A stretch of DNA of 64,000 nt from Naganishia liquefaciens (Eukaryota; Basidiomycota; Tremellomycetes; Filobasidiales; Filobasidiaceae): positions 496,001 to 560,000 of the forward strand of contig BLZA01000049.1 of assembly GCA_013423385.1 (NCBI GenBank), written 5' to 3'. Both the position numbers and the translations under genes were made by a program. Position 1 is the first letter of the stretch, and each line of letters opens with the position of its first letter. Under the pieces are notes generated by a model that worked only from the letters and a program-made list of their open reading frames with translations, was not told where the DNA came from and searched no databases. Shown here one piece after another: positions 5,901 through 33,073 of the stretch.

Positions 5901-7019
5901 ATATCCCGATGGAAGTAGCCAGATTTGTGAATGTGATGTAGTCCTCCGACGACTTGATGAAAAATGGAGGCAACAAGCCCTCCAGCCAGAGCGCGTCCTT
6001 TTCGGGATTTCGTCAGCTGATACATGTTTCCTTCCATGCATTCGAACACAAAGTAGAGCTCTTTTGTGTTTGGCAGCAGGAAGGCGTCGTAAAGGGGGAT
6101 AATGTTCGGATGCGGCCCAAGTTCCCGTAAAGACTAGTGATGCAAAAGCCGGTCAGATCATATAGATGCAGGAACGCAGATACTTACGACCAATTCTCCA
6201 AGCTTTGAAGCTTGCTGCCAACCGCCCTCCCAGACCCTCTTCATCCGCTTGACTGCGACCAACCGTTTGCCCACCCATTCTTGACGAGCGCCAGCGCCAC
6301 ACTGCATTGCCGACAATTTGGTTTCCGGTGCCAAAGCTGACGACCAATCACATAACCAGACCGTTCCGAAAGATCCGTCGCCGACTAGCTTGACGGCACT
6401 ATACGATCGAGGCGCGTCTGATGATTGTGTAAGTCATACATTCCAGCAGGGAAACGCCCTTATGCTCACCTGGAGGTAATACCCCTATTCTGCCATCTGG
6501 GTACCGCTTTCTTACCCTCGACGCATCGATTGATTGCTGCATGACAACGTCTCCTTCTCCTCGCCCATCCACCAGTACCGTTCCGGTCGATTTCCGTTGA
6601 TGACGCGGCTCTGGCGGACTGTTCAAATTGCCTCGGGAATCGCTGACTTCTATCCCTTCCATCCTATCCACGATGGAGTTCGCGTGCGCCTGAGCATTCT
6701 GACTCGTTTGCCGCAAGTCGTATTGGTGCGCCGGTGTTAGGCCTCCCGAGGGGGGACTCATCTGAGCCTCTGTAAATTGCCGTGATGGGCTGGGCGAATA
6801 ATCCTCTTGGACCGCTGGCGACCGGTATGGACTAACTGAATCAGGGGATTGAAAGCCATTTCCAGGTTCGCGATATTGCGGAATACTTCCAGGTCGATAG
6901 CGTAGAAGAGGCTGACTTGCCTTGGCTTGCAGAAATTCATCTGATCGGCCTGCATTATCGCCAGCGAAGTAGGACATCGTCGGAGAGCCTACTTGATGAG
7001 CCGCTCGAGTTTCTATCAT
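2901..7019 (-). CDS. CRK1: Ime2/Crk1-like (RCK/MAK family) protein kinase
   Basis: Six exons (7019-6470, 6417-6188, 6133-5399, 5342-3502, 3451-3055, 2993-2901; introns 50-61 nt) encode 1281 aa. A disordered N-terminal region of about 185 residues precedes the kinase domain: glycine loop VGDGSFGTVW, catalytic loop HRDMKPENLL, DFG, and activation segment TEYVSTRWYRAPE with a TxY pair. Between the HRD and DFG motifs lies a proline-rich insert of about 45 residues. A long Ser/Pro-rich tail follows, ending SKPQITLPPFSEIASVAG. The activation motif and tail place it with fungal Ime2/Crk1 kinases, known in basidiomycete yeasts to control mating, morphology and meiosis. This assignment is by family; the exact orthologue is inferred. 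A second in-frame ATG lies at residue 15, so the start may be 6977. Confidence 0.85.
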
Positions 7020-7210
7020 AGGTCGATTAAGCAGTGGTTGTCTGACACGAACGTTGCCGTAGGGTGATGCAGGGCCCAGTTATTCAATCCCGGGCTTGGT
7101 GAAGGTATTGAGAACAGCAGCCCCAGACTGCCGACAATAGGCTGGCTGACGGTCGTCCTCCGTGATGTCTCCCGCTGGTAACTGGCTGTCGGATCCTCCT
7201 TGCGTTTCAA

Positions 7211-10200
7211 TGTCTGTCGCGAAATCCCTAGCTGTCCACCGCTTGCACCTCCCGCCTTCGTCGATGGTTGACCGCGAGACGGACGACGCTGCTATGCGAT
7301 AGACGTGCTACGGGATGGTTACGAGGATAGAGTGAGGGAGGAGCGGAAAAAATAAGCCAGTATGACAAGGCTAGTATTGCAAGTCTGGTTTGGCAGCTGG
7401 TGTGTGGCTTCGCGCTATGCTTAGCGGCGGGGGCGATCGACGGAATTGGGCAAAGTTCGTTTCAATACTTTCTAGCTCCGGTCAGGGTCAGCTCTTCCGG
7501 GTATGATTTATTTGTGCTTCCGTGGTTCGCCTTCCCAGAGTCAACTTTGGTACACCTCAAGCTTTGGGCGCTCATGACAGAGAGGAACATGCGGCGCCGG
7601 CGATGATGTAGATGGACCCGCTGGTTCGACATATGAAAGCCGTATGCGAATGAGGAAACGCGCATACCGACTGATTGATCACCCTACTGCCCTGTCGGGT
7701 CGAAGCAGCTGATCGGCCGACGGCAGCTGTTTGAGCTGTTACTTGAGGTACACCAGCGTGTTTGCTTGCTAGCGTGGTATCCAAATGATATTCAAATATT
7801 GTGCTGCCGTTGTTTTACGGAACAAGTCTAGAAGCTTATAGAGTATCCAGTCAGCAGGCACAGCTGCTGGCACGACTGACCGACAGATTTACCGACAGCA
7901 TCACAGCAGCTGTAGCTCGTTTACCCTGCTGCCATAAAGCCCGTAAGTGCTGTGCGGTCATTCAGCTCAGTTAGCTACGCTATTCTGCTTGAACTGTCAA
8001 ACCTTGCTCGATTCGAGGAAAGAGTTTTTCAAAGCTGGTCATTTGTCTTCACAGCGAATTCATCTTGGACCGTAGATCCAAAGAACAGTACCCGGAGGCA
8101 TCTCTTCATCTATGCCGAGCTAAGACTTTGTAGCTGAATAGGGTAAACGTCCACGCGAAAGGGTCGTCGATCCTTCTCGAGAACTTTCTCGTTTCTCGTT
8201 CCACGAGGTAATTCATGAGGTCATTCTTGACGAATCGACAAGCTAGCTGACATGTGGTCGTCTACACAGCGCTTTGTGATCGTGATCGCGATAACCAGAG
8301 ACATGAATGCTAGAAAGCTTTGAGCGCTTCGAGGACTAGGGGGAGATGGGGACCGAACCGTGCTGCGCGGGACCAGCGTTTTCCCCTTCAGCTTCTCCAG
8401 CTCTTGATCGTCAGAGCTGTCCTCAATTTCCCACTAATCCACACGAAACGCTACCATTTTTACTTATTCGAACTTGTACAACATTCAGCCACTTGTACTG
8501 GTAAGCTTACTGCCGCCTTGCATGTAGACTGTTCCGCGGCAAGTTTGATAGCGGACAGGCAAAGCCAGGACCTGTTGAACAGCTGCTTGAATGAATCCTG
8601 ATCCAGTAACCTTGATCCACATCACATCAGGCGTGCCGCGTCCACCTCGTGAGCTATTCTGCCCCAGCGATTCAAAGCGCATACTGTATGTAGGCCGGCA
8701 GACGAGCTTGCTAGATGCATTGGACGACAGCCGTGACAACCGCATCCGGCTCCGACTCATGGCTTTGATATCAGAAAATTCTTCAAAAGACCGCAACATT
8801 ATGGTCAAAGCCACAAGGTCTGATTGACAGTTACCGGATGTAGCAGTTCTCAACGACTCTCAAAATTCACTTCCGACATTATTAGTAGCTCCTGTACATG
8901 TCGTATGCGAGCATGCGAGCTAGTACTTCTGGTTACTAACTCGGAACCGAAAAGGAAACAAAAACAGACTTCCGACAACTCAACGTGGGGTTTCAGGTAG
9001 TGTTTCAGAGAGACTTTCAGAGTTTCAGGTCGTGAAGCTGGTCATCTTGAATGCGCGGTTGAGTGACAGCTTGACTGACATGGGGACATGCTGTTTGTGC
9101 AAAATGTTGCTGAATCATGAACAATGAGTCCGCTGGCATGCAGGTCGTCATTGTTCATCCCCGAATCGCACGGTCAGCAGACCCGCACTGGTGCAAGCTG
9201 CTATTGACGAGACAGCGCGTTGATGATCCCTGATAGCTTCTCTCGCCGATCTCTCTGATTGTCGAACTGACACCCGATTCGTGAGGAACTTTGCGCTGTT
9301 CAGCTCGCACTCCAAAAAAAAACGTCAAGATCTTCAAGCAGTCTGATGAGATTCAGGCACGAAGAAGACGTTTTTCCTGTGAATGAGATAGGTACGAAAA
9401 TGGCACGAATAGCTGAGTGTACTGAGCAGTCCAGTCCAGTGATTAGTCCAGTGATTAGTCCAGTGATGAACTGTGATGATCAAGCTGGTGAGCAGCTTCA
9501 ATTGAGAAGCTTTCTGAGCTGAGGTAGCAAATAGTATACGAGAACATCTCGTAATAGCCGTCGTAATATGGGCTCCTCGCTCGTGTCCTTTCCAGTCAGT
9601 TTTCCTATTGCGAGTCCTGAATCCCCACACTCAGTATTCTCGTGATCAGTATTGATCGATATTCTGCAGGTACCGTGAAACTCTACATTGCAGCTTTCAC
9701 GGTCGGCAGTTAGTGTTGACGAGTGTCCTATAGGCAAGCTGCAATTCTAGCTACAGACCAAAGCATATGGACAACAGTTAATTGGTTATTTCAGTTCCGC
9801 GCAGATATTTTTGCTGATCTCGTAAACAGGAACAAACCAGCTATCGAAGCCATGCACAAAGCTATACGATGCGACCGGCCATCTGGTGACGTTACAGTAT
9901 GCGATGACAGATTCGGCGACGTCATCTGCCCTGATGAGAACCATCCTCTGGATGAGTTAAGAATGACCGACGAAGCTACCTACGGTTCCACACATACTGA
10001 CCAGCTTGATTAGCTCTTTCGCTCTTTGTGTGAATTGTCGGCGTCTGCTCATCTGGATCTACATACGCGGGAGTCACCTGGCCCTGGTCCATTGTTCGCA
10101 TGGACAAGCTGACTGGTAGTAACCTAATTGATTCCTGGGCAACTTTGTAAAAGGCAACATCTCAGGAAGAGTCTTTACATCTCATCAGATTCACACGACA

Positions 10201-22886: not shown

Positions 22887-22976
22887 ATCTCTATGGTGAA
22901 ACGGTATCATGGTCGCTTGCCACTGCCTCAACGGCTCAACTTGCGATCGGCAGGGGTTCGACTCCCCTTGGAGATA
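22887..22976 (+). tRNA. tRNA-Gly(GCC) with intron, copy 2
   Basis: This is base-for-base the same 90-nt gene as at 2417-2506, on the opposite strand, including the ~19-nt intron after the GCC anticodon. A T5 Pol III stop follows at 22981-22985. Confidence 0.9.
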
Positions 22977-22980
22977 CATC

Positions 22981-22985: not shown

Positions 22986-23288
22986 GACCATCCATGTTCA
23001 GTGATGGCTGGGCCCTTATTCTGATGACGCCTCACCAGAGTGTCAAGGTATGGCAAACTCTGGGCTGCCCTTGGGCCGAACCCTTGAACCTTGAAAGAGA
23101 TCTTCCAGTATCCAGAGAGATAGCGAGTCGCTAAGCCGGCGTGTCAGGATACATGCTCTACAAAGTATAATATCGATGTGTGCGGCCTGCCAATCGCAGC
23201 CTGGTGCGACTGCACGAAGAACCGAGTGGGAGCCGGGATCCCGTCAAGGGAGAACACAACTTTCGCGCACGAACCAATCCTTGCCCAA
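22986..23288. other. Spacer between tRNA-Gly and inverted repeat
   Basis: No gene is visible. In the inversion model below, this is the left flank whose end (23288) is a rearrangement junction. Confidence 0.5.
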
Positions 23289-23379
23289 GTCTACTCGTGC
23301 GTGCGATTTCGCCATCCCGAGCGGACGAAAAGCTAATGCCCGCCTTGTTTTCTGCTTTTCTCGCAGCGGTGGCGCTTAA
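23289..23379 (+). pseudogene. Duplicated 3' tail of the ADP/ATP carrier gene
   Basis: It carries the last 8 bases of carrier exon 2 (GTCTACTC), the 70-nt final intron (23297-23366) and the 13-nt last exon ending in TAA (23367-23379), as in the true gene at 32103-32013. Nothing of the carrier lies upstream, so this is an orphan fragment left by a rearrangement and makes no protein. Confidence 0.8.
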
Positions 23380-24018
23380 ACGCGACAATTCCCGATAGGA
23401 AGCCTTTACGGACGGTGACGGTGGTCTTAGATAGAGAAGAAGTCAAGAGGAGCATGCAATGCAGTTGTAATCCTCTTTTCCTCTACCCGCAATCACTCGA
23501 GGTGTCCGGCATTGGAGCCTCGAGTCGATATAATCAAAAATTGCATCTCACATTCGCCGGCTGGCTCCTGGTGTATCACTTGCCTTGGCGAGCCATTGCA
23601 TCCAGACCGAGCCCATACGTACGCTCTCAAGAGTCGATTCTGCCATCCCTCCCTACGCTGTCCCGACTTGCGTTGACACCCCACAGAGCCCCAGTCCCGG
23701 TACACTTGCTGGCCTCAATCGGGTTTCTGCGCGGATTTGAGTGTTCGTCATTGCCCTTCATCGCTTGGCCTTTGCTCGGGGAGTTGAATCGGCTATCAAG
23801 CTCTGAGGCAAGTGGCGGCAGGCCATGTCGCCTCCCCGGGTGCAGCAAACTGGACATTGGGCCACGTTGTACTTCAGCTCATGTATATATCTCCTGCTGA
23901 AGAAGACGTCGCATCATGATCGTATATCCCGAGTCTATACACCGTTGCTTTCTGACACTACCCGCCTTGCCTGCGCACGGCAGATGCCTCCTTGTCTCAG
24001 TAATCTTCTATCATCGGC
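23289..24018 (+). repeat. Inverted repeat, copy 1 (730 bp)
   Basis: This segment matches the reverse complement of 31383-32103. From 23289 to about 23770 the copies look identical by eye; from there to 24018 they differ by many substitutions and small gaps. The left edge starts within the last codons of an ADP/ATP carrier gene and the right edge includes the native 3' end of WDR59 (PMIEDY and stop). Both copies share an open frame of at least 127 codons (from 23415 here), but I find no protein family in it. Confidence 0.9.
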
Positions 24019-27000
24019 GAGTCCAGATACATCGAGTCGGCTAGGGTTCCCAAGGGCAAGTCAACGTTCGGAATGACTTCAGAAGCGGATGTTTGAACGG
24101 CGCCAAGGGATGTGTTTAGCCCACCTGTCGATTGGCAAGCACAGCCGCAACCTTGCGGGCACACCAGGACCTCATCCGACATGGCTGAACTCCAGCCTGC
24201 GAGACACGACTGATGCGCGACATGAAGGCAAGTTGCACATATGGTCGATAATCCTAGACCGCATTGATCAGCCCTCTCATAACGAAGAAGACGCGATTCT
24301 GCGCCAGAGCTTACCTCTAACTGGCAATCGGCACACTGAGCACGGAGGAGCCGCATGGATAATGTTGCATTTCAAGCATTTACCGGATGCAGCGTCGATG
24401 ATGTCCTCACGGCACGCGGTACATACTTGCCGAATGTCTGGCGCAGTTTCACAGGTCAATTTTCACTCCAGGCCACCAGACTTTCGGCACTCACCGATCG
24501 TGAACTCCTTCGCTAACTGCGGCGTGACATACGTGCCATCATCGTCCTCGATGGCGAGCTGGACTATATCCGTTGCTTGAATATGGAGTCCCCATCGAAG
24601 GAGCAGTTCCGCATAAGCGAATCGGGTGGAGGAAAATTCGCGGACAATCTGCCTGAAAGGTTCCAGTTGCTGTCTAATAAAGCATTCGAGCGAGTGAGTG
24701 ATTGAATTATAGAACTAGCAGATTCGGCTGAATCGCTTACTGCAGGGGTGTCTGTTCGCGAATAGGGCGGATTTGCCAAGTATCCCTTTTCTCGTATCGA
24801 CCGTTTCTGGGCAGAGCAGAGATTGACCCCTGTCTACCGAATTTACCGTCCTGAACAGGTGACCCAAAGGTCACTCTGCTCCCTTGTTTTGCCATGCCAA
24901 CGCCGCCAATCGAAGATTCCATGGGAACGGATGATCTGAAAGTCGAACCCAAACTGTTATCCGGACCAGATTCGATGGCTTTGCTGAAGATCTGCGCGCG
25001 AAAGTTGTGGCGGTCTCGAGGGCTGGCTGACCGATTCGGAGACCTGGTCGAGTAGCGGAGATTGGCGGCTGTCTGCATCACCGGCACGCGGTCTTCGCCC
25101 TCTAGCTCCGTGGGGAAGATCGAGATTTCGGAGCCTTGACGGTCCCGTGACAGAAACTGGCTGATTTGGCTTGGATTGCTGGACTTCATGCTTAAACTAA
25201 GCGGCAGATATTGAGCGAAACCAGAAGTCTTCGCCGTGGCTACATTCCATCCTGTGTACGGAGTCGCTGGACTGGGTGATGGCCCTCGAATGAATTGCTG
25301 ACTACTGCGTCTCTTCCGGAATGCCGGTCGGGTCAGGAAGTAGTCGTCCTGTTGATTTGTCCGAATCACTGGCGCAGCCAGTTCCGCATGCGAGAGTCGA
25401 CCTAACATGGATATGATGAATGGCAATGAAATGTGAATAGCAGAATGTGCTTACTCGCCGCCATTTCTTGAAGCAGTAACCAGTTTTCGAGGACATTCAC
25501 CATGGCAGCCAAGGTCTGTACGTCCCTAAGCGAAGCCAGTTTCACGAACCTATAAGGTTTCGCAGCTCGATTATCGAAAATCTGCGGCTGTGAGACAGAC
25601 TTACAATGATCTGATAAACGCGTGATCAGGCAAATCCATAGATCTTTCGCTTTGCTTCTCCCGTGCCAAGGCGACCTTATGGCGGAACGGGCGAGGTTTT
25701 GCTTGGTGCAAGGCATAGTCATTGTGTCGGGTCGCTTGGGATGCAGAGCCGGCTCCGGAAGGCTCAAGGGAGGTTGTCATCGCTTTCCAGACTTGGGCAA
25801 TGGAAGTTCGACCCGCTTCTCTGGATACTTCCATATTGGTCTTGCAGGATACGCTGCCATTATCGATGCTGTATTTCTCCGCCAATGCTTTGTCCGGCGA
25901 TGTGAGATCGGCAAACGGTTTTAGACTCAGAATCGACGTCGGAATCTGCTGCCGCATAAGGTGATGACGCTCTTGAGATCTGGCCCGGGGATCGTAGAAA
26001 GTGTTCGTGGTCGTAACGCTATAAGGCTATCCCGGCTTTTCATTAGCACAAGTTGTTCCCCGCGTCACAGGCGACTTACTCGTGTAAGTCCTTGTGCAAA
26101 TATCAAACCAGCCAATTGACATCGGTCATCATGTTTCTGATTCGATCGCTTGACAGATCCCATTCGGGTCAAAGCTGACATAGCCTTCAACAAAGAGGAA
26201 TGCTGTCCTCCCCCTTTGCCGGACAATGCTGCCGTCTTGACCATCAAGCCGGTAGAAGGTGACGGGGAATGAGAAAGGAATCGCTTGCGCGACGGAGCGA
26301 TCTTGGGGAAGAAAGTTACCAATTCGCCTGAGAATAGCTATTTTAGTGAAAGGTATGGAGATGAATCTGCCGTAAACGCTTACCATTTGGCCCCCAGGTC
26401 GCTCCGCAGGACCGTTTGCTTGGTACATTGTGTTGGATGACTCCGGCTTCAGAGTCAGAATCCGAATCAGATGCTCTAAACGTTGATCGACCTCTGGTTT
26501 CCTCGTGCCCGAGCAGATATGCGATGCATCGCACAAGGCAAGGCCTTTCATCTTCACAGATACGCTGTATGGCTTGCTTCATGGTCCGGTGCGTCGGTGC
26601 CGGTATGTCCGATTTTTCTTCTAGGTCGAAGGAGGGAAGACCCTCCTTGCCTCCTATTCTGGGATAGCCAGGAGGAAAGCGGAATCTGATTCGCAAGAAG
26701 ACGAGTCGACCGCCTTCCCCCCAAGGTCCCTTGAGCGTCGCTATACAGATGCGCCTTTTGAAGTCCATCTAAGCAGAAATATGAATCCGCTCAGCATCTG
26801 CCTATGAGTATACCTCTCGCTACTATTGAGCCACTCACGCTCTCAAACTTAACCCGAGGATAGGCGATTCGTACTTCTTTGATCCTGCAGAGACGACACA
26901 CATAAGCCTGTGACGCGTAGTAACAGCGATCGTGCTAACGTACTCGTCTGAAAGACCAATCTGGTCATCATCCGGCTCTGCAACGAGACTCTCGCGCCTG

Positions 27001-29372
27001 TCACTCAAGCGAGAAACTGCAAGAGGGTGCTTGTACATGCGGTCTACTGATCGAGCTCGAGAAACGGAAGCGGTATTCGAGGTGGTGCCAATATATGACG
27101 TCCTCCGAGAGTTATCAGTAGAGTTGTCGCTGGATTCTTTACCAGCTTTCTCGCGACGAATCTGCGATGTTTCTTGAGCTCGAGCGTCATCGAGATAAAC
27201 ATGCCGCTTACGGTGTTGACTCCGCCAATCCAGTCCATTTGGTCGATGCCCTTCCGCTTTCGTCTCTTGCCTCCTACAACACCTCTCGTCATAACGGCCT
27301 TCTTTTCGACAGGCGGATGAGTATCGCCGCCCTTGACCTTTTGCTTTGGCAAAAAGGGAGTGGGTACCGGCAAGATAGCCTCCACTCGCTGTCGCAAAGA
27401 CATGGTTCGCAACCGATCCCGCTCTGAGTACTTCAAATCGGGGAAAAAGCCGGACTTCGTGCGGTATGGCGATATCATTTCTGCGCACGGCGTTGGCGTT
27501 AGAGGGGTGGCACCAGACATGCTGTCCCCATCCCAATTCGCATAGCTGATATCGGGAGCGTTTCTGCGGGAGACTAACACGTCGATTGGCGCACCTCGCC
27601 TGTATCCAGCTCGCTCGAGCACATCTATTGCGACTGGAATGATCCTGAATTTGCGATCCTTGGACCACGTAATCAATTGGAATTCCCGGTCTTCGAATTG
27701 TGGATCTTTGCCGCCCCTTGTCCGCCAGACGAACTCCTTGACCGGTGCGTCATAGCCAGCGAATGTCTCCAAAGGTTCTCGTCCGTCACGTCCCCACATT
27801 TGCAGCGCAGAAGGTCCCCTCTGGGGAAGTGCGAGGACTCCATCACCGAACGGTAGATGACGAGCCCTCCAGACAGGATTGTTTGTCTTGATGGTCGTTG
27901 TGGGTTCCGCAGGAGCAGGAACAGAGGGGAAGTATTGATTACTGACGCAGAGGCCGTCTGCAAGATCGTCAATGCTCCAGAATTTGATCGTCATGTCTGT
28001 GCAAGTGACAAAGTTCAGGTATTAGGCCACGCAAAGGTGCAGCGGGCTCACCTAAGGAACATGTGACAATTTTATGCCTCTTGCGCCTGTCCCAATCGAT
28101 GCCGTATATGCGACTGTCATGCGCCTTGATGGACGTGATGGGAACTGCTCCTTTCTGCCATCGAAGATAAGTACTTTCGGATCTCGCCGAAAGAGAGGAC
28201 GACATACTCTGGTATCCCAAATACATAGTCTATTTCCGTGCGCACTGGCAATCATGTAGTCATGCTGCCGATTCCACTTCACTTGCGTTCCAGCATCTCC
28301 CCAATCAGCCAGACGGATCACGGCTCTGTTATTGTCCCCAACCCGCAGATCCCAACCCTTGACGGATCCATCGATACTTGTTGTAGCCATCAGATTCGGG
28401 TCCCTCGCGTGCCAGTTGATATCGGTGATAGAACGAGCGTGAGCGAAAATCAGACGAGAGAGGCAAGATGACGGCGAAGTGGAGCGTAGATCCCAGATAA
28501 GTAGTTTTTGAGAAGAGGTTGTCAAGATGAGATTGGATGTTACGGGGTGAGGCGACCACTGGCAGCTAGGTGACCAGCTTGAGAAGGATTGTTTTCCGGC
28601 ATCTGCGACCATACTTACTCGGCAACCTGCCATGTTCCTCCCTGAGGGACGTATCGAGGCGTTTGCTCTGGATACTTCAAGTCCAAGATATACAGACCTT
28701 GACGCCTACACCCATGATGATAAGCTTTTGCCCCTCATCTTTGCCGGAATGGGCTTACGATGCCAGGCATACGTCACGGTTGGAAGGACTGATGGACAGA
28801 GATCCAACAGGAATCGGAAGATTGATGGCTTGAAGGGAGCGGCTTATCTCAGTGTCCACCTAACATTCGAAACATGACCGCTTACAGAACTCTTTGTAGA
28901 AGTCGTCGGACTGCATCCTAGCCTCCCTGTCTTCCTCTTTCTCGAACAAATCGCTTGCGTTGACTCTACCGTTCTCTGCAGAATCGTCGGCATGACCGGT
29001 CTTGTCTAATCCGCGCTGAGATCCCGCCCTCGATGGCGGAGCTGACTGCGAAGGCACCCGAATCACTGTCTGTGTTGAAGTGCTCGAGCGAACAAGACTC
29101 GGCTTGAACGGCTTCGGAGTCTGGTTGCCAGTGTTTGCATCGGATTCAGATCCCTCCGCAGGAGAACGTCGTACACGACTGGCGCTGTCATCATCCTCGG
29201 TGTCGCCCAGGACCGGAGTCGAAGTCGATCTCTGAGGAGTTCCCCTTGGCCTTTCTTGCAGTATTCGCGCAGATGTTGAGGTATCCTTGAATGGTCCGGG
29301 ACTTGACGAGGCTGCAATCGGCGTGATTTCCCCGGAACGCGGCGGGTCCACAGATGATGGGGAGCTGGCCAT
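23997..29372 (-). CDS. WDR59: WDR59/Sea3 (Mtc5), GATOR2/SEA complex subunit
   Basis: Sixteen exons (29372-28886, 28828-28759, 28705-28619, 28565-28208, 28154-28052, 27996-27212, 27161-26944, 26884-26839, 26768-26384, 26327-26080, 26026-25605, 25549-25455, 25401-24741, 24673-24495, 24437-24315, 24253-23997) encode 1507 aa. A disordered N-terminus leads to an N-terminal WD40 propeller (CQWSPHPVTSNLIL, SITDINWHARDPNLMATTSI, GTQVKWNRQHDYMIASA). An RWD domain follows (EIKEVRIAYPRVKFES, RFRFPPGYPR), then helical segments (FAYAELLLRWGL) and a C-terminal zinc RING (CSVCRLPVRG, CATCLHVAHQSC, CPQGCGCAC). This order defines WDR59/Sea3. GATOR2 relieves GATOR1 to keep TORC1 active on vacuoles. The final codons lie inside inverted repeat copy 1. 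One acceptor (28565) was preferred over 28577 for intron length. Confidence 0.9.
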
Positions 29373-29694
29373 GTTCCGACTATGTATTCAGCATGCCGAG
29401 GGTTGTAAAAGACCTGCTTGACCTTTTAGTAGCGGTCTGTCGGCATTCATTTCCCGTCAAGACATCTATCGACCGTATGCATGGTTAGACCGGGTAGACC
29501 CAGCATGATGCGATTCAGTTATGCGATCGGAGTTCACCTGCGCGGATGCTATTTTTCGGGTGTATGGGTGGGATTTCCTTGAAGAGGCGACTTCTCTTCG
29601 TGGATGCATCTCTGCGCAAGTCCTATGACCTGCAGCTACGCTCGTTTAGCTGTTATCTCCCAGCACTACAGAAAAGCCCTAAACCAGAAAAAAC
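29373..29694. promoter_or_regulatory. Divergent promoter, WDR59 / URA4
   Basis: This 322-bp spacer separates the opposed starts. Both genes lie inside the inverted-repeat-bounded segment, so the promoter would have moved with them. Confidence 0.5.
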
Positions 29695-31065
29695 ATGGAT
29701 CAAATCACAATTCCCGCTCCTGCCGAGTGAGCCTACTGACACCGAGAAAGCGCTTCGCTGGTCTAATGCAGAGCTCCTTAGCTTTCACGTTCACCTTCGA
29801 CAGGGGGCCATGTCGGAGCTTGTCACTCCCCACGTTGCCCTTGGTGGCATTCAAACCGCCTACGTGATGCCCAACCTGTTGCCTCCCATCACGTCGACGG
29901 AGCAAGCACTCTCTTACAAGCGAGACCTCCAAAAGCTCGCCCCCAACACCGAGTTCTTGATGACACTCTACCTGCACGAAAATATGTTGGAGGAAGTCGA
30001 AGTCGAAGAGAACGGAGAAAAGAAAAAAGTTTTGCGAGGCGTTCACGAGATTCGTAAAGCTAGTCGAGCGGGAATTCGGGGTGAGTCTTACTTGATGCCA
30101 TGTGCTGCGGAAAGGCGAATGACTGGGAATATATCAGGAGTAAAATCGTACCCAAGAGGCGTGACGACACACTCTTCTACCGGTATCGAATCCTATGAGC
30201 CGTACTACCCCGTTTTCAGGGCTCTTGAAGAGGAGGGTATGGTGCTCAACCTCCATGGGGAGGTCCCGAGCGATGACGCGGAGGTAAGACGATCTTAGGA
30301 GAACAGTCTTGCATGATATCTAATTATCCCTACAGAACATCTCCGTCTTGAACGCGGAAAAGCACTTTCTTAAGCACTTGCGCAAGCTCGCTAGCGACTT
30401 CCCCAAATTGAAGATTGTTTTGGAACACGCCACAACGAAGGAAGCCGTTGACTGCGTAGGGCTTTCGTTGCGTGTTGGCTGGAACGCGTTGGCTAAACGA
30501 CCTCGAACAGGTGAAATCTCTTTCCGATAATGTCGGCTGCACCATCACTCCTCATCACCTGGTTCTGACGATCGACGCCGTTCCCGCTCAACCGTTCCAC
30601 TTCTGCAAGCCGATCGCTAAGGAGCCCATTGACCGACGAGCGCTTCTCGATGTCGTTGCGTCTGGTCACCCTCGTTTCTTCTTGGGCAGCGACAGCGCCC
30701 CGCATCCCATCAAGAGCAAGGTGCCGAAGCTGCCGAACACCTCGGTCGAGGCAGAGGGCCCGCACGGAGCCGTTGAGGGGGACGGTCCGCAGCCGTGCGC
30801 CGCTGGTGTCTACACCTCTCCTGTCCTTTTGCCTTTGGTTGCATACATCCTGGAAAAGGCCGGTGCACTGGATAAACTCGAAGGATTCGTTTCTGGAAAC
30901 GGTCGAGCCTTTTACGGCTTGCCAGTTGACAAGAATGATCGCGCGGTAACGCTGCAGCGCGTCAAGGGAAAGAAGGTGCCCGCCTTTTTCAAGGGAGCTC
31001 AGGAGGGCGCTGAAGTGGTGCCATTCATGGCGGGAGAAGAGCTAGGATGGGAAATAGCCGCCTAA
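29695..31065 (+). CDS. URA4: Dihydroorotase (pyrimidine synthesis)
   Basis: Five exons (29695-29726, 29782-30080, 30138-30283, 30336-30455, 30511-31065; introns 52-57 nt) encode 383 aa. The zinc-binding DFHVHLRQG motif spans the first intron. Other class II dihydroorotase landmarks are YVMPNLLPPITS, the lysine in GVKSYPRG (carbamylated in the family), LNLHGE, LEHATT, TITPHHL and LGSDSAPHP. It closes carbamoyl-aspartate to dihydroorotate, the third step of UMP synthesis, in the cytosol. Length equals the yeast Ura4 class. The first exon is only 32 nt. Confidence 0.95.
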
Positions 31066-31382
31066 ATCATCCGCTCGTTCAGTTGTATTAAGCTGGGAAA
31101 TTTCATCATTTCTTGGGAGCACAGGACCTGGCTCGCAACACAATCATTGTGCAAAAAAGAGGAGTCCTAGCTGCCACCTTGACAAGGGCATGTGAAGCAC
31201 CAAATTTCTGCTCGAGCGGTTCCCTCCTACCGCCTTGCGACTGTCTCTGGCACGCGTTCAAATCTATTGTTGGGAGATCGCTTGACAGTCCTCTGGGCTG
31301 TCCGGGCAGAAAGTCAGTCGCGTGGCGCAAGAGGTGATATACTGTTAAAGTATGATGCTTTGAGTCTGACCCTCACCTCCTA
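31066..31382. other. Spacer between URA4 and inverted repeat copy 2
   Basis: The URA4 3' flank, with no gene visible. Its right end (31382) is a rearrangement junction in the inversion model. Confidence 0.5.
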
Positions 31383-32103
31383 GCCGATGATAGACGATCA
31401 CTGAGAACAAGGGGATTATCTGCCGTGCTCAGACAAGGCGGATAGTGTCAGAAAGCAACGGTGTATAGACTTGGGATATAAAATCACGATGTGACGTTTT
31501 CATCAGCAGGATATGAGCTGAAGTACGTGGCCCAACGTCCAGTTTGCCGCACCCGCGGATTCGACATAGCCTGCCGCCACTTGTCCCAGACCTTGATAGC
31601 CAATTCGGCGGCCCGAGCAGAGGCCAAGCGATGAAGGGCAATGACGAACACTCAAATCCGCGCAGAAACCCGATTGAGGCCAGCAAGTGTACCGGGACTG
31701 GGGCTCTGTGGGGTGTCAACGCAAGTCGGGACAGCGTAGGGAGGGATGGCAGAATCGACTCTTGAGAGCGTACGTATGGGCTCGGTCTGGATGCAATGGC
31801 TCGCCAAGGCAAGTGATACACCAGGAGCCAGCCGGCGAATGTGAGATGCAATTTTTGATTATATCGACTCGAGGCTCCAATGCCGGACACCTCGAGTGAT
31901 TGCGGGTAGAGGAAAAGAGGATTACAACTGCATTGCATGCTCCTCTTGACTTCTTCTCTATCTAAGACCACCGTCACCGTCCGTAAAGGCTTCCTATCGG
32001 GAATTGTCGCGTTTAAGCGCCACCGCTGCGAGAAAAGCAGAAAACAAGGCGGGCATTAGCTTTTCGTCCGCTCGGGATGGCGAAATCGCACGCACGAGTA
32101 GAC
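31383..32103 (-). repeat. Inverted repeat, copy 2 (721 bp)
   Basis: Reverse-complement partner of 23289-24018. Its right end is the native 3' end of the ADP/ATP carrier gene. Its left end carries a relic of the last WDR59 codons on the plus strand, reading PMIDDH and stop (31384-31404) with no WDR59 sequence before it. The half next to the carrier gene looks identical to copy 1; the WDR59-side half is diverged. Confidence 0.9.
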
Positions 32104-33073
32104 CTTTCCGAACATCAACTCCTGGAGCTTGTCGTAGAGCGACAAGACACCGGCACCGGCAACACCTCGCAAGATGTTGGCACCAGCACCCTTGAAGAGC
32201 GACTTGACACCCTCGGCGGCAACGATCTGCGAACCGGCGTCGAACATGGACTTGTAGTGGACCTTGGCACCGGAAGTCATCATCATTCGTCTGTCAAGAC
32301 GAGATATAAGCATTTACTCGGATATGACGATCGTGCAAAACTCACCGTCGGATGGTGTCCAGAGGGTAAGAAGCCAAACCAGCACCAGTAGTAACACCCC
32401 AACCGAGAGCGAACGAGGCCAAGAAGTTGCCCTCGAGGGGACCGACAAGGACGACAGGCTTGATCGAGTCGTACATACCGAAGTAGAGACCTCGGTAGAC
32501 AACGATACCGACAACGGAAGGAACGAAACCTCGGTAGAGACCAGCGATACCGTCAGAAGCCAAAGTCTTCTTGTAAACGTCGACGAGACCGTTGAACTGT
32601 CGGGAACCACCAGACTTGGCAGACTTGTTGTCGTTGGCGAGACGGGTTCGGGCGTAGTCGAGCGAGTAAACGAACAAGAGGGAAGAAGCACCGGCGGCAC
32701 CACCCGAGGCGATGTTTCCGGCGAACCACTTCCAGTAACCCTCAGACTTCTTGAAGCCGAACAGGGACTTGAAGTAGTCCTTGAAGGCAAAGTTCAAAGC
32801 CTGGGTGGGGAAGTATCGGATAACGTTGGCGGTGTTTCCTCGCCAGAGGGAAGCGAGACCCTCGTCGGCGTAGGTTCGTCGGAAACAGTCACCGATACCC
32901 TTGTAAGGGGTGGACAATCGACCCTGCTTGATCATTTCGTCCTGGTTCTGGACCAAGAGCTTAATTCGCTCAATGGGGGCGGCAGCGGTCTTGGCGACAG
33001 CGGCAGAGACACCACCCATCATGAAGTCGATGGTGAAGGACTTCAAGTCCTTCGGCTTCTTAACGTCAGACAT
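32013..33073 (-). CDS. AAC1: Mitochondrial ADP/ATP carrier
   Basis: Three exons (33073-32346, 32290-32096, 32025-32013; introns 55 and 70 nt) encode 311 aa. Three mitochondrial carrier repeats are present with their PxD/E motifs ([30 protein letters not shown]). RRRMMM is the ADP/ATP carrier signature. It exchanges ADP for ATP across the inner mitochondrial membrane. The last exon is just 13 nt and gives the ending VYSGGA, matching the usual GGxx tail; reading through the donor would give a 12-residue unrelated tail instead. That exon lies in inverted repeat copy 2. Codon use is strongly biased (CGA for Arg), as in the Ssb gene, fitting high expression. Confidence 0.95.

Follow-up and report, generated by a model that had tools for sequence, protein, structure and literature searches.

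A mosaic inverted duplication flanks the WDR59–URA4 block of Naganishia liquefaciens, a possible flip cassette

In the 64,000-nucleotide stretch of Naganishia liquefaciens DNA analysed here (the window), a block containing the WDR59 and URA4 genes lies between two inverted copies of a sequence composed of gene ends and spacer, and these copies are perfectly identical over 483 bp and diverged over the rest. We consider it probable that an old inverted duplication of the spacer arose by break repair, that its arms later recombined, and that the WDR59–URA4 block is a possible flip cassette. The mosaic nature of the pair is new and was absent from an earlier note on this DNA, which had read the two copies as the signature of a single staggered-break inversion.

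Arms composed of gene ends and spacer

The window spans positions 496001–560000 of contig C24, in an assembly of 19.4 Mb and 28 contigs. The two arms, at 23289–24021 (+) and 31380–32103 (−), align over 735 columns with 93.9% identity and are separated by a gap of ~7.36 kb. A repeat scan returned the same pair as two ungapped blocks, and a chance match is excluded (E reported as 0). The earlier note had placed an inverted ~720-bp duplication at 23289–24018 and 31383–32103 and had suggested that the copies be aligned and their junctions mapped; with this done, the duplication proves to be real and the ends first given for it are correct within 3 bp. The same DNA stands in opposite orientation at both ends of the segment, as a staggered-break inversion would leave it. 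The features of the locus, in window coordinates, are as follows.

22887–22977, + strand: tRNA-Gly with intron (GCC), separated by 311 bp from the copy 1 junction on its right; Rfam tRNA, 48 bits
23289–23771, + strand: copy 1, part identical to copy 2 (s); spacer preceded by an orphan carrier 3′ end (the final 8 bases of exon 2, then the 70-nt intron and the last exon at 23367–23379)
23772–24021, + strand: copy 1, diverged part (x, 250 bp); spacer and the final codons of the intact WDR59 gene, stop included
23997–29372, − strand: WDR59 (GATOR2 subunit), inside the block; stop 23999–23997, ORF 28860–29372, start codon as in the ORF list
29546–31065, + strand: dihydroorotase (URA4), inside the block; start uncertain
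31380–31620, − strand: copy 2, diverged part (x′, 241 bp); spacer and degraded remnant of the WDR59 end
31621–32103, − strand: copy 2, part identical to copy 1 (s); spacer and the 3′ end of the carrier gene, here intact
32013–33073, − strand: ADP/ATP carrier; three exons, 33073–32346, 32290–32096 and 32025–32013

The repeat spans the carrier end, whose last exon measures 13 nt, the spacer and the last WDR59 codons. As the earlier note had described, each copy has the 3′ end of the carrier on one side and that of WDR59 on the other; the full WDR59 gene is joined to copy 1 only, and the full carrier gene to copy 2 only. The WDR59 remnant of copy 2 (31381–31404, given for the + strand) reads PMIDDH between two stops, the intact counterpart being PMIEDY followed by its stop. 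Because both copies keep the convergent order of the gene ends, the unused end being an orphan in copy 1 and degraded in copy 2, there is good support for an ancestor in which WDR59 and the carrier lay tail to tail around one spacer, in line with the earlier proposal that the two genes were once convergent neighbours.

When copy 1 was used as a query against the 19.4-Mb assembly, two places only were found within the limits of that search; the arm DNA is otherwise single-copy and is no transposon. A transposon origin of the arms, or a transposon-mediated inversion, was rejected on this copy number and on their composition of gene ends and spacer. The URA4-side flank was found at one place in the search. 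The left flank gave matches at at least eight places including itself, six on the same contig and two on contig C17, and its recurrence is limited to the tRNA part. This tRNA is assigned to Gly when introns are allowed and to Ala under bacterial settings; another intron-bearing tRNA-Gly gene of the window lies at 2416–2506.

The spliced translation of the carrier gene is open for 311 aa, and its exon 1 matches Mito_carr (PF00153, E 1.8e-53). Among the matches listed, the carrier shares 96% identity with four named Naganishia carriers and up to 98% with unnamed metagenome proteins; these carriers are highly conserved, a Tremellales protein in the same list reaching 93%, and the top-ranked match, labelled Penicillium chrysogenum, shows 79% identity over 81%. 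The predicted C-terminus, ...KVYSGGA, is identical in 6 of 12 fetched relatives (P0002–P0004 and P0006–P0008), reads ...KVYSGGSG or ...KVYAGGA in three more and is otherwise in the remaining three (P0010, P0011 and P0018). This C-terminal agreement supports the splice model with the 13-nt last exon.

In WDR59, Pfam places WD40 just over its cutoff (27.6 versus 27 bits) and gives a sub-threshold match to zf-RING_16 (25.6 bits, cutoff 27.4). Among the matches listed for the joined exons are proteins that carry the name WDR59 or WDR59/RTC1-like, and the best row shows 47% identity over 54%. The end of the gene (23997–24150) extends ~40 residues past the RING-like zinc finger; several Tremellomycete relatives seemingly have much longer tails. 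The joined dihydroorotase exons share 89% identity with a Naganishia friedmannii protein and 83% with N. albida dihydroorotase, values that by themselves make a Naganishia or close relative (Tremellomycetes, Filobasidiales) very probable as the source; Pfam assigned no family at E 0.01 to the two exons given singly.

A step in identity along the arms

The differences between the copies are not spread along their length. Columns 1–483 of the alignment, on the carrier side (23289–23771 = 32103–31621), contain no difference, and the other 252 columns contain 45, comprising 32 substitutions and 13 gap columns. Over the 239 ungapped bases of the diverged part we counted 20 transitions and 12 transversions (K80 0.149). 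The best changepoint falls at column 483 with a likelihood ratio of 102, the maximum from 1000 permutations, scanned at every third column, being 23.4. A single event with nothing later should give the copies an even age along their length; with 0/483 beside 45/252, the two parts do not have one uninterrupted common history.

The simplest account of the step would be a later exchange between the arms, that is, a conversion of 483 bp. Such a step is expected from conversion and also from late extension of copy 1. According to this main rival, an old inversion duplicated the WDR59-side part only (now 250/241 bp); a later break at the left end then invaded copy 2 there, copied 483 bp as far as the carrier exon and joined the left flank. 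Such an extension accounts at once for the perfect identity from the step outward to the junction itself (23289), and fits the identity up to this exact outer end of homology at least as well as conversion does. Repair-based inverted duplications are also discussed for the Drosophila inversion O7, in the part of PMC7584159 available to us. The late extension requires two independent duplications at one place, however, and we regard it as rather improbable.

It is unlikely, though worth weighing, that assembly produced the orientation of the block or made the 483 bp perfectly identical. An exact inverted repeat of 483 bp is ambiguous for short reads, and a run of 12 N at C24:618945–618956 hints at scaffolding, other readings of it being possible; in Saccharomyces, an excerpt of PMC9731477 indicates, flip/flop orientation is usually unreadable from short-read assemblies, with arms longer than those described here. 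An assembly error can hardly account for the duplication itself, since the copies differ from each other in their diverged parts.

We consider very unlikely the strict form of the earlier model, in which the spacer was duplicated by one staggered-break inversion with no further event. The arms and the gene ends fit it, and inverted duplicates of single-copy DNA at segment ends are an accepted mark of such events (PMC3355041, in the portion consulted), but it does not yield 0/483 beside 45/252. Selection holding both copies of the 483 bp identical is scarcely credible: no support for it was found, the arms giving no Rfam match to an RNA gene up to E 1, and the stretch includes intron and spacer and in copy 1 has no carrier gene attached.

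Origin of the second copy and the putative cassette

Of the single staggered-break inversion of the URA4–WDR59 block proposed earlier, the convergent ancestor stands, whereas the single event is not established, identity being uneven. Recombination between arms can also turn the segment, so the present orientation is silent on how the second copy arose. Staggered breaks lead to the same final map as a templated inverted insertion of the spacer with a subsequent flip, and both predict WDR59 tail-to-tail with the carrier and position 23288 beside the sequence left of 31380. Since a copied-in spacer plus a flip predicts the same, a tail-to-tail WDR59/carrier pair and adjacency of 23288 and 31382 in relatives would not single out staggered breaks, which are one possible route; a copied-in spacer with a flip is also allowed as the first event. 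For Drosophila, staggered breaks that duplicate the spacer during inversion of a block have been described (PMC3355041 and PMC7584159, as far as their excerpts extend), and in the same portion of PMC7584159 repair without staggered breaks is argued for inversion O7 and repair-based origins of inverted duplications are discussed. We favour a staggered or repair-linked inversion with later conversion.

The history that we propose, drawn from this one assembly, would have two steps. The spacer between WDR59 and the carrier would first have been duplicated in inverted orientation ~7.4 kb from the original during repair of a chromosome break. Recombination between the arms would then have overwritten one arm with the sequence of the other along the 483 bp of the carrier side. 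As a possible consequence, a crossover anywhere in these 483 identical bases would turn the WDR59–URA4 block with all genes intact. Reasoning from the coordinates, either orientation should spare every gene, because the same carrier end is present on both arms, with WDR59 and dihydroorotase inside and the carrier outside; in the flipped form, WDR59 would face the carrier again.

Near-identical inverted repeats, exact over 483 bp, flank the segment as in a flip/flop region. Since identical arms allow a flip, a staggered-break inversion cannot be proved from the assembled orientation; the order seen here may have been derived by inversion, may be one isomer of a standing pair, or may simply be the one that the assembly happened to choose. 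The identity step carries a more general warning: duplication at both ends can be taken as proof of such an inversion only where divergence is even along the arms. Should the cassette flip, it would be a small fungal flip/flop locus made from ordinary gene ends, with no special repeat gene needed.

Other repeat pairs, relatives and known systems

In 294 kb of the same contig (C24:466001–760000), 27 repeat pairs were found at E 1e-8 and 35 at E 1e-4. Ten of the latter were left after a filter that dropped pairs less than 0.5 kb apart (tandem and overlapping ones included), pairs more than 30 kb apart and pairs falling on a hand-made list of tRNAs based on ARAGORN, Rfam and BLAST positions. Five of the ten are inverted and represent three loci, with intervals of 7.4, 3.2 and 4.2 kb; the five direct pairs represent four loci and are weaker (66–85% identity, at most 72.5 bits). 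With equal counts in a small sample, no bias towards inverted pairs is proved. Outside the filtered set, a direct pair at C24:495059–496182 and 753665–754841 (69% over 1191 columns, 257 kb apart) probably represents paralogous genes. The two further inverted loci are the following.

C24:735132–735568/738770–739207 (L029:5128–5568, 8770–9210): second inverted locus, 82% identity, 3.2 kb between arms
C24:691797–692376/696545–697147 (L025:1797–2376, 6545–7147): third inverted locus, three pieces of 73, 81 and 92% identity, 4.2 kb between arms

A longer alignment of the second locus gave 74.1% over 615 columns, and one forced gapped alignment of the third gave 59.1% over 897 columns. Genome probes of 441 bp for the second locus and 184 bp for the third each found two places. 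A Pfam search of 10 frames of L025 and L029 assigned a family to none of the 10. A tRNA gene lies between the arms of the third locus (L025:5946–6027). Visual inspection had suggested tRNA-like motifs in the arms of the second and third loci, but these were dropped for want of Rfam support. Both loci are weaker than the WDR59–URA4 pair and are candidate inversion marks.

We put forward as a tentative and rather doubtful idea that break repair in this yeast lineage routinely leaves short inverted duplications of unique DNA around blocks a few kb long, and that partial gene conversion keeps some of these duplications as live flip switches. If the routine break-repair reading is true, the small inversions that reshuffle fungal gene order would leave a readable scar. 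With the two nearby inverted duplications, how small inversions arise in fungi can be tested by simply comparing genomes within the genus.

Locus tags visible among the 120 carrier matches listed include those of N. onofrii, N. adeliensis and N. vaughanmartiniae; among the 120 dihydroorotase matches listed the only Naganishia tag is that of N. friedmannii, and among the 120 WDR59 matches listed, many of them with no name or with names shortened, none is named Naganishia. No adjacency in relatives could be read from the locus tags of the listed carrier, WDR59 and dihydroorotase matches. The contig named for the N. albida carrier (P0011) and the contig named for the dihydroorotase of that species (P0243) both measure 574,230 bp and are probably identical. 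Pattern scans, one for each set, confirmed 0 of 5 matches to a WDR59 exon in viral contigs and 0 of 21 matches to a carrier exon in bacterial and archaeal contigs. Among the papers listed on Naganishia genomes, inversion and synteny, none concerns this locus by title or abstract opening, and those listed on inverted duplications at fungal inversion breakpoints treat a Drosophila inversion and a Segregation Distorter supergene.

The closest functional parallel is the 24-kb flip/flop region of Saccharomyces chromosome XIV, where, according to the available portion of PMC9731477, gene conversion is proposed to keep the inverted repeats alike and occasionally to invert the segment. As at the locus described here, a fungal gene block lies between near-identical inverted repeats and conversion is proposed. 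The Saccharomyces region has 4.2-kb arms with whole sporulation genes, a 24-kb block and both orientations among strains (same portion), whereas here the arms are 0.7 kb of gene ends and spacer, the interval is 7.4 kb and flipping is suggested from one assembly. In that system orientation was unchanged across ~53,800 mitoses and 950 meioses (same source, in part), and such stability, with arms much longer than those here, would by analogy count against a fast switch.

Inversions 2h and 2q of D. mojavensis likewise have non-repetitive DNA in opposite orientation at both segment ends, and one copy at 2h has decayed, a further likeness; they were compared with the non-inverted order of D. virilis (PMC3355041, in its excerpted text), whereas here a single assembly shows mosaic identity. 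Recurrent mammalian inversions are similar in that inverted repeats allow repeated turning (PMC3961182, and an X-chromosome case, Caceres et al, as cited in PMC9731477, both in excerpt); the evidence for their recurrence comes from many genotyped people and from other species (PMC3961182, same excerpt), compared with one assembly for the WDR59–URA4 block.
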